Virus record (IMG/VR): IMGVR_UViG_3300008448_000820
Coordinates: 1 to 20,842 of that record
From: a virus
Direction: 5' to 3' (one strand)
DNA: 20,842 bases
The notes under the pieces are model-generated. The model was not told where the DNA came from, did no database searches, and saw only the letters and a list, made by a program, of their open reading frames with translations. Shown piece by piece: positions 2,801 through 19,583 of the stretch. The translations under genes and the position numbers were made by a program. Position 1 is the first letter of the stretch, and every line of letters begins with the position of its first letter.

Positions 2801-3885
2801 TATCTAGTTACTTTAAAAATCCAATTTTGATCAAACACATACTCCTCATCGTTAGTTGCTTTTGTTTTTATTGCCACTCTGTAATAGCGTTCAGGCTGTA
2901 AGCCGTCAAGGTATAGTTTGAAATAACTTCCCTTACTATCAGCACTTATTTGTGTGTAAGTTTCATCAAAAGGAATTATAACATCGTCAGTTTTAGCATC
3001 TAATATACTATAAAAACTTGAAGATGGTAGCTGATAAATGTCTAAGTAGTTACTACTTGTTGCGTAAGTTATTACTGGATATTTTGGTCTTGCTGTAATA
3101 TTGAATCTAGGTTTGTCTGATTCTTTATATTGATCTCTTAGATTTGTTAGGTTGATTACAACCTCATCATTAAATTGTACAACGCTGTGTGTGTTGTGGT
3201 ATACGGCATCCTTCCACTTAACTTGTAATTGCGGTTGGTAGATTGTGTGAGTATCTTTGCTAAAAAACTTTAAGCTGTTGAACGTGTTGGTATCAGATTC
3301 ATCGCTAAGTGCTTTTTTGATTATAAGACCATTGTTTGGAATGCTTCCAGTTAACCAAGCTCTTACCATGGTTGTAACATCCATGTCTAAATCTGTTGTA
3401 GAATAGTCAAAGCTTTGTGTAGCTGTGTAAGAAGTATACCATGTTCCTCCTCCTGGATTTGTTGCATACTCACCTGATGAGCTTGATGTGAAGAATGAAG
3501 TAGTCCATTTAGATCCACTATCATTTGCATTAAATCTATACTCCCACGAAGCTCCATTTAAAGTCATTGGTCCGTTAGTGTAGCGACCAGTACCCATGTT
3601 CCAACTTTGTGAAACAGGATGAGCATATAAGGTGTATTCTACAGGAATTTCTGATGCTTCTGCTGTAAACAACCTTAGTCCGTAGCTTGCACTTTGTAGA
3701 GCTTGTTGTGATAGAATTTTTTGTATGTTTGTAAAATCAAAGTCTAATAAGATTCTAGAATTATAAACCTCTCCTGTATCAACAATAGTCTTGTTAATCT
3801 CCAACATAGCGTCTAATCCAGTATTCATTTCTGGGTAACGCTCATATAATGTGGTATCTTTTTTATTAAAAATGCTAAATATCAT
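2800..3885 (-). CDS. DNRLRE-like domain baseplate protein
   Basis: 361 residues. The N-terminal two thirds match the DNRLRE pattern known from surface and carbohydrate-binding proteins: RILLDFDF (44-51), a YGLRLF strand (68-73), LYAHPVSQSWNMGTGRY (86-102), a GGGTWYT segment (145-151), MDVTTMVRAW (168-177) and NNGLIIKK (184-191). The last ~130 residues look like a beta-sandwich ending in RYYRVAIKTKA. The gene directly follows the gp6 homologue, where T4 carries wedge proteins gp7 and gp8, but I see no sequence likeness to either. Best reading: a baseplate wedge or wedge-attached protein with a binding domain. Its end overlaps the start of the Ig-domain gene, and one base separates it from the stop of gp6. 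Confidence 0.8.
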   Translation of the reverse strand: MIFSIFNKKDTTLYERYPEMNTGLDAMLEINKTIVDTGEVYNSRILLDFDFTNIQKILSQQALQSASYGLRLFTAEASEIPVEYTLYAHPVSQSWNMGTGRYTNGPMTLNGASWEYRFNANDSGSKWTTSFFTSSSSGEYATNPGGGTWYTSYTATQSFDYSTTDLDMDVTTMVRAWLTGSIPNNGLIIKKALSDESDTNTFNSLKFFSKDTHTIYQPQLQVKWKDAVYHNTHSVVQFNDEVVINLTNLRDQYKESDKPRFNITARPKYPVITYATSSNYLDIYQLPSSSFYSILDAKTDDVIIPFDETYTQISADSKGSYFKLYLDGLQPERYYRVAIKTKATNDEEYVFDQNWIFKVTR

Positions 3886-5785: not shown

Positions 5786-6207
5786 TATTGTGAAGTATTA
5801 ATTTGGATTAGTATTGGTCTTGTATCAAACTGATTTCCTTGTAAACTTATTACCATTTTAATAAAAAGTTTGTTATTATCTGCATCGTCAGTTATAGTCA
5901 ACTCATTTATAAATATGTACGGTAAAAAGGTTGCAAAATTGGTTAGGATATTTTCTCTTAAAGTTTCTATTGTATCCTCTGATATATTTTCAAAAAGAGT
6001 CTTTTTAAGGTCACATCCAAGAGTTGGCAACATTATACGCTCACCCTTTTCAGTCAAGAGAAGGTTTTTTGCATTTGCAACAGCTTGATCTATCGTTGTA
6101 TAATTAAGTTGAAAATCTGCACCTGTTGGTTTGCTCATAGGCAAATCAATACCGACTGCAACGTCTGGTTCAAGATCAATTGGGTTTATCTTTATTTCGT
6201 ATGCCAT
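5785..6207 (-). CDS. 25: Baseplate wedge protein gp25-like (GPW/gp25 family)
   Basis: 140 residues, about the size of T4 gp25 (132 aa). The family core is visible: an N-terminal strand, then YTTIDQAVANAKNLLLTEKGERIMLPTLGCDLKKTLFENI (about 36-75), including the conserved KGER and P-x-x-G-x-D-L segments, and a C-terminal amphipathic sheet. In T4 and in type VI systems (TssE) gp25 sits where sheath assembly begins on the wedge and binds gp6. Older databases often label the family lysozyme; no catalytic residues support that. It starts in a TAATG overlap with the upstream 120-residue gene and ends in another with gp6. Confidence 0.95.
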   Translation of the reverse strand: MAYEIKINPIDLEPDVAVGIDLPMSKPTGADFQLNYTTIDQAVANAKNLLLTEKGERIMLPTLGCDLKKTLFENISEDTIETLRENILTNFATFLPYIFINELTITDDADNNKLFIKMVISLQGNQFDTRPILIQINTSQ

Positions 6208-19115: not shown

Positions 19116-19137
19116 ATAAATACCCAACTCTCCAATC
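19116..19137 (-). repeat. Inverted repeat, copy next to tmRNA 5' end
   Basis: On the minus strand this reads GATTGGAGAGTTGGG then TATTTAT, ending two bases before the mature tmRNA. It matches the reverse complement of the copy at 19530-19551 at 20 of 22 positions, and both differences would be G-U pairs in RNA. Confidence 0.85.
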
Positions 19138-19141
19138 AATT

Positions 19142-19507
19142 TTAACCTTTAATTACTTGTTTGGCACCCAATGTGCCTGTTAATTTTTGTTCTAACTTAT
19201 CTAAACGACTGTCCGTATAAGCATTTGCCATTCCGATAGCACCGGTATACTTATCTTCAATCATTTGATGTAAATCCCGGCCGTTATCAGCCAACGCATT
19301 ATAGATATGCGTTTCACGGGTATCTATATCACGTCTCCATTCTTCTTGTGATTGCCAAACGTTATGTTCAAAATTTGTTAACCACTCTTGAGTTGATTTG
19401 AGTTCTTTTTGTTGTTTAAATACCTTAATAATACCTAAAACAATTACAATTACTAATGCAATTGCAACCATCGCAAGCATTCCTAAAGCGAATGATAATA
19501 TTTCCAT
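19142..19507 (-). CDS. Membrane-anchored coiled-coil protein, 121 aa
   Basis: Residues 4-28 (LSFALGMLAMVAIALVIVIV and on) form one membrane helix, followed by basic residues (KVFKQQKELK) and a soluble helical domain (TQEWLTNFEHNVWQSQEEWRRDIDTRETH; DSRLDKLEQKLTGTL). Not recognised as a family. The ATG is preceded by AAGGAG seven bases upstream, an unusually clear Shine-Dalgarno for this genome. A Bacteroidota-type promoter lies just upstream at 19553-19583. The gene is bracketed by a 22-bp inverted repeat, and its stop lies 28 bases before the tmRNA, so message and tmRNA precursor are probably one transcript. The membrane-bound coiled coil could act as a scaffold or envelope factor; function unknown. 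Confidence 0.8.
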   Translation of the reverse strand: MEILSFALGMLAMVAIALVIVIVLGIIKVFKQQKELKSTQEWLTNFEHNVWQSQEEWRRDIDTRETHIYNALADNGRDLHQMIEDKYTGAIGMANAYTDSRLDKLEQKLTGTLGAKQVIKG

Positions 19508-19511
19508 GTTT

Positions 19512-19520
19512 TTTCTCCTT
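19512..19520 (-). promoter_or_regulatory. Strong Shine-Dalgarno before 121-aa gene
   Basis: The minus strand reads AGAAAGGAGAAAAAAC then ATG. Most genes in this window lack any such site, so this one stands out. Confidence 0.6.
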
Positions 19521-19529
19521 TCTTATTAG

Positions 19530-19551
19530 GATTGGAGAGTCGGATATTTAT
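19530..19551 (-). repeat. Inverted repeat, copy in leader of 121-aa gene
   Basis: On the plus strand this reads GATTGGAGAGTCGGA then TATTTAT; the transcript carries the complement, ATAAATATCC then GACTCTCCAATC. It starts two bases downstream of the -7 box and ends before the Shine-Dalgarno, so most of it would be the first part of the message. Partner of 19116-19137. Confidence 0.85.
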
Positions 19552-19552
19552 T

Positions 19553-19583
19553 CAAATATAAAGAAAAGTTTTCTAAAAAACAA
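19553..19583 (-). promoter_or_regulatory. Bacteroidota-type promoter for 121-aa gene and tmRNA
   Basis: The -7 box TATATTTG (19560-19553) fits the Bacteroidota consensus TAnnTTTG exactly. A -33 TTG (19583-19581) lies 20 bases upstream and touches the stop codon of the RNase H-like gene. Transcription would start near 19546-19548. Confidence 0.65.

Follow-up and report, generated by a model that had tools for sequence, protein, structure and literature searches.

The stretch of viral DNA analysed here (the window: 20,842 nucleotides, IMG/VR record IMGVR_UViG_3300008448_000820) carries a short protein-coding gene next to a tmRNA gene, and the two flanks of the coding gene are complementary to each other. 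The locus therefore raises the question of whether these flanks pair in the transcript, whether such a helix belongs to the message or to the tmRNA, and what enclosing a whole message might achieve. The features concerned, all on the minus strand, are the following.

19560-19553, minus strand: possible Bacteroidota-type promoter -7 box, TATATTTG, directly 5' of the 5' arm (weak evidence)
19551-19530, minus strand: 5' arm (leader strand), ATAAATATCCGACTCTCCAATC, from sequence and fold, with an equivalent arm in every family locus
19519-19515, minus strand: Shine-Dalgarno sequence (SD) AGGAG, outside the helix and unpaired when the helix forms
19507-19142, minus strand: enclosed ORF of 121 amino acids, with an N-terminal membrane segment, a long helical rod and a C-terminal DSRLDKLEQKLT motif
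19137-19116, minus strand: 3' arm (trailer strand), GATTGGAGAGTTGGGTATTTAT, from sequence and fold
19113-18734, minus strand: tmRNA with tag GEKSTFTFEDAMAFVGADLAVAA, downstream of the 3' arm

The helix in the window

A sequence-only reading had described the flanks as a 22-bp inverted repeat with just two departures from complementarity, both G-U. Both statements were confirmed at these positions: the arms form an uninterrupted 22-bp duplex, made up of 20 Watson-Crick and 2 G-U pairs, across 392 nt of intervening sequence, and 2 nt separate the end of the 3' arm from the mature 5' end of the tmRNA (19113). Folding of the 19116-19560 transcript, the check that had been proposed, gave an MFE structure in which the helix is closed, with a mean pair probability of 0.93; in the MFE fold of a transcript extended through the tmRNA the helix is again closed and the tmRNA fold is retained.

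With a score of 49, this helix is the top long-range duplex of the window. Across 60 dinucleotide shuffles of the whole window the best score averaged 34 and peaked at 46, a value that one of the 60 reached, and with a stricter score confined to gene flanks the window reached 38 against a maximum of 31 among 780 shuffled flank pairs. The single shuffle that came to 46 speaks for a chance repeat in this window, the probability of which we regard as close to negligible, given that relatives carry the equivalent feature at the same place with compensating changes; for the family, chance is excluded.

The 5' arm had also been said to follow directly upon a promoter -7 box. The sequence TATATTTG is indeed there, directly upstream. 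Since TANNTTTG is only weakly enriched in the window (42 found vs 30 expected) and is common by chance, the transcription start is a candidate only. A start some 5-8 nt 3' of the box would trim a few basal pairs from the helix and leave about 16. A search of the phage collection turned up no DNA closely related to the window, and the 3'-arm pattern had no match in viral contigs. Elsewhere in the window, a tRNA at 20090-20163 matches Rfam at 46.8 bits and is absent from the ARAGORN output.

The enclosed gene, its relatives and their neighbours

Pfam and PHROG searches with the enclosed protein gave no match, and AlphaFold2 modelled it as one long helix (pLDDT 90). Relatives, mostly of 30-45% identity, were found in 42 viral contigs and also in immuto, a Flavobacterium phage in culture; the parts conserved among them are the N-terminal membrane segment and the C-terminal DSRxDK motif. 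The ORF belongs to a previously undescribed phage protein family, small membrane-anchored rod proteins whose genes Bacteroidota phages have next to tRNA and tmRNA genes; no member could be confirmed among 84,980 genomes of bacteria and archaea. One further 122-amino acid ORF (L231, 8174-8542) lies between tRNAs, is hydrophobic at its N terminus, has flanks that form a helix of 16 bp, and is possibly a distant member.

Complementary flanks occur at the equivalent place in all 55 family loci examined (about 48 of them distinct), and in 39/39 loci of the set defined by protein alone; among the 55, the 11-bp helix of L004 is the single one that is indistinguishable from chance. The arms are 10 to about 50 nt long and lie roughly 300-430 nt apart; their sequences vary from lineage to lineage, and their spacing to the gene is kept, usually 14-30 nt 5' of the ATG and 3-20 nt 3' of the stop codon. 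Most helices measure 10-27 bp. The weakest, besides that of L004, are the perfect 10-bp helices of L005 and L006, and the longest is a single 45-bp case (L047, arms 2809-2853 and 3189-3233), where the gene has no directly adjoining tRNA. Phage immuto (L048) has both the gene and the helix, which makes the structure experimentally accessible.

The flank score was at least 25 in 34/39 family loci, with a family median of about 31, against 16 (median) and 24 (99th percentile) for dinucleotide shuffles of the same flanks. Among 316 other ORFs in the same contigs the median was likewise 16 and six reached 25; one high-scoring control ORF, in immuto, owes its score to a duplicated terminator hairpin. 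The rule that any ORF placed in a tRNA array acquires a helix was rejected, 2 of 179 other ORFs between tRNAs scoring above 25. The helix is specific to this gene family and above chance.

The RNA genes around it vary. In many loci an upstream tRNA or tmRNA stands a few nt from the helix, and in three (L001, L007, L025) tRNAs lie within 5 nt on both sides. A tmRNA follows the gene in the window, L023, L024, L027 and L033, and precedes it in L034, L040, L041 and L044; a few loci, among them L032 and L022, have neither a tRNA nor a tmRNA beside the helix. Because the neighbouring RNAs change among loci, the helix belongs to the gene and not to the tmRNA. A tmRNA-specific role was rejected on this ground, and the earlier suggestion that the helix ties the mRNA to the tmRNA found no support in that form: the helix tracks the gene family, to which tmRNA is one neighbour among several. 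The loci lacking adjoining stable RNAs also mean that separating such RNAs cannot be the whole story.

Several observations were made on these neighbours. Directly 5' of the 5' arm in L008, L012, L016, L036 and L038 lies a tRNA-like sequence, unreported by ARAGORN, with clear acceptor and T arms and odd middle parts; phage immuto (L048) has at the equivalent site a sequence annotated as tRNA-Cys (5876-5961). GOLLD RNA (RF02032, about 307 bits) occurs near the family gene in L004 (2076-2489) and L007 (119-532).

Two other functions can be weighed at this point. The 3' arm might combine with the distant 5' arm into the hairpin of a long-range intrinsic terminator, and a U tract does follow the 3' arm in a few loci (L003, L029). 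Most loci have none, the structure is no local hairpin given the distance between its arms, and in several loci a terminator would cut off a tRNA or tmRNA a few nt downstream, all of which makes this explanation scarcely credible. Pairing of the 5' and 3' ends might instead hold the message of a membrane protein inert, or mark it for RNase III, in the manner of the hok and icaR mRNAs. The protein is small and has a membrane segment, the ends of its mRNA pair, and the SD begins merely a few nt beyond the arm. That SD nevertheless lies outside the helix, and its predicted unpaired fraction over 31 loci is 0.80 with the helix and 0.70 without; since it stays open, translational control of this type is disfavoured, and we judge fold-back control of translation or decay unlikely overall.

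Covariation of the arms and the boxA-like sequence

If the arms pair, each should fit its own partner better than those of other phages. Over 32 distinct loci, own arms gave a total of -850.6 kcal/mol against -467 +/- 26 kcal/mol for swapped arms, and the best of 20,000 permutations reached -606.7 kcal/mol. Tighter flanks were used here, since tRNA sequence within 90-nt flanks had obscured the contrast. Next, 28 loci were aligned without gaps on the 5' arm: 89.3% of the cells were paired, vs 30.8-52.4% when the strands were slid, and 78 cells were double-changed, vs 22 +/- 4 after shuffling. Double changes fell at 13/18 pairs, and some positions displayed three or four Watson-Crick types with zero failures. 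These alignment figures lean towards structure, because the partner strand was set by each locus's own best helix with an artificial spacer between the arms, a bias that affects the swap and retrieval tests less.

For retrieval, viral contigs were queried with the 5'-arm and SD sequence alone (GTTCTTTGACATAYAGGAG). Each of the 31 contigs returned has a family member together with a 3' arm that fits; they include 16 distinct new loci, in which own arms gave -472.5 kcal/mol and swapped arms -326 +/- 17 kcal/mol. In the outer, variable part of the helix G-U outnumbers A-C by 14 to 2 (some of the loci being related), a ratio that favours RNA over a DNA palindrome; counts from the boxA part were dropped, as the fixed 5' strand there biases them. 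Comparative analysis has thus shown the helix to exist as a covarying RNA structure, most strongly in the large subset that bears boxA. The sequence-only reading had suspected selection on pairing and likened the helix to an rRNA processing stem looping out the whole message; all three points are supported. One-armed divergence without compensation, sought in dozens of relatives, gave a result in favour of pairing.

The same data bear on the view that the arms are terminal inverted repeats of a DNA cassette that moves the gene among tRNA loci. The neighbouring RNAs do differ by phage and the arms are nearly perfect repeats. Inside them, however, lie neither a transposase nor a recombinase but a single ORF that is not a transposase; transposon ends would be conserved on the outside, whereas here the inner end (boxA) is conserved and the outer ends covary freely; and the G-U excess is unexpected of a strand-neutral DNA repeat. 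We consider a mobile cassette very improbable.

The boxA-like sequence in question is GTTCTTT or a one-letter variant of it, found within or adjoining the 5' arm in 29/32 distinct loci of the main set, often as GTTCTTTGACATAT immediately 5' of the SD. GTTCTTTGACATAT is the core of a 17-mer, GTTCTTTGACATATTGG, which in about 40 of 80 genome matches, nearly all of them in Bacteroidota, stands some 50-330 nt 5' of 23S rRNA. A second rrn boxA is located at this same place before 23S (PMC10250234). In 10 of 12 operons with a locatable 23S end, a leader-trailer helix starts 7-32 nt downstream of the point where the 17-mer begins; by position and resemblance we regard this 17-mer as boxA-like. Further copies occur away from rRNA in Bacteroidales and related genomes (L052, L059, L068, L072, L103, L113), 5' of unrelated protein genes, often extended by TTTAC-CG and with a promoter-like TTTGC intervening. 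Because many Bacteroidales copies lie elsewhere, the boxA reading rests on the positions in rRNA operons and tRNA arrays.

In phage contigs the 17-mer is followed by a tRNA within 300 nt in 58 of 80 cases (L200-L279), the gap often being about 10 nt and the tRNAs sharing its strand almost without exception, and several phage tmRNAs have a GTTCTTTAACATAT-like sequence directly 5', ending just short of their first base. Phage tRNA arrays may be transcribed by way of the host's rRNA antitermination system. A GTTCTTTRA-type sequence stands 14 nt 5' of the tmRNA in L033 (3254), L034 (2533), L040 (2515), L220 and L264; at the corresponding site of the window (GAGTTGGGTATTTATAT) it has been lost and the 3' arm is there instead.

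The arms of the window, L004 and L005 contain no boxA. In the window the helix is kept and boxA is lost; a promoter belonging to the gene itself might explain the loss, owing to which the boxA-like sequence was invisible from the window alone. As its arms lack boxA they could not be placed in the covariation register, and the helix of the window is consequently supported by its own statistics and by its equivalent position.

Within the helix the boxA strand is nearly constant while its partner varies, most often towards G-U pairs, which means that something other than pairing also constrains the 5' arm. This pattern fits a switch in transcription rather than a processing device, in which a leader boxA bound by NusB-S10 would set RNA polymerase to rRNA mode, and the 3' arm, on emerging, would pair with boxA, strip off the Nus factors and reset the polymerase. 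The 3' arms of most loci are perfectly complementary to boxA, and phages of the same kind have unpaired boxA copies 5' of tRNAs and tmRNAs. Against such a switch, pairing in the variable outer 8 bp is kept as strictly as in the boxA part, and the helix persists in the window and L005 after boxA has gone; the switch seems to us rather unlikely, if somewhat better placed than control by fold-back, these two being the main alternatives to the reading given below.

A possible mechanism and comparison with known systems

The reading that we prefer, at about even chances, is by analogy with rRNA: a leader-trailer helix that would seal and separate one mRNA inside a stable-RNA transcript. The phage's stable-RNA array would be read by an rRNA-type elongation complex of the host, recruited through boxA (NusB-S10), and the leader strand would capture the trailer strand as it emerges. 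The resulting helix would set the message apart from the precursor of the neighbouring tRNA or tmRNA, in the case of long helices by RNase III cleavage and otherwise by acting as a spacer beside the cuts of RNase P and tRNA 3' processing. The outcome would be a stable, translatable mRNA with both ends base-paired and its ribosome-binding site free. RNase III cutting, end protection and the participation of Nus factors are what we infer; cleavage is possible for the long helices and doubtful at 10-13 bp. RNase III acts poorly on helices of that size (L005, L025, L034, L048), which counts against this mechanism, as does the fact that other ORFs in tRNA arrays manage without a helix. So do the missing boxA of the window, L004 and L005, the loci with no adjoining stable RNA, and the paired state of boxA, which in rRNA stays out of the helix. 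Altogether we are moderately confident, firmly so in the helix and moderately in the mechanism.

A wider proposal is offered more tentatively. Bacteroidota phages might express their tRNA and tmRNA arrays as imitation rRNA operons, using the host's boxA and Nus factors, and an mRNA within the array might be treated like rRNA, with boxA tethering guiding closure of the helix towards an end-sealed message. The family itself suggests a way in which large phages may read through long tRNA arrays that are not translated, and it lets one ask which elements of rRNA maturation (boxA, helix, RNase III) are enough for an mRNA to be treated alike. No account of the arrangement came up in the searches of open-access papers, and a covarying helix around an entire protein-coding message, one strand of it resembling rRNA boxA, is apparently no described mRNA architecture.

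Among known systems, hok-type type I toxin mRNAs encode a small membrane protein and have paired 5' and 3' ends, features which the phage gene shares. It differs from them in its larger, rod-like protein, in the adjacent tRNAs and tmRNA, and in that no occlusion of the SD is predicted. In the icaR mRNA of Staphylococcus aureus, the 5'-UTR pairs with the 3'-UTR, covers the SD and represses translation (PMC3868564). The phage gene has in common with this bacterial mRNA the pairing of the two UTRs and a potential RNase III substrate; in the phages the SD is predicted to be open, the pairing covaries across many genomes, and tRNA or tmRNA genes abut.

The closest resemblance is to the rRNA leader-trailer helices, as in E. 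coli pre-16S and pre-23S RNA (PMC10250234). In E. coli, active 30S subunits require this helix to be longer than 17 bp, in a role largely independent of RNase III, and boxA tethering has been proposed to poise the leader strand for pairing with the emerging trailer (PMC10250234). As in rRNA, complementary flanks surround the RNA that is to be freed and the same transcript has stable RNAs alongside; in most relatives a boxA-like sequence is found in the leader strand or close to it. Unlike those helices, the present one is phage-encoded, encloses a protein-coding ORF and no rRNA, and has a putative role in processing; it is mostly shorter (its one 45-bp case apart), and in the window it has no boxA. 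Where boxA is present in the phages it is paired inside the helix, whereas that of rRNA lies upstream and outside it.
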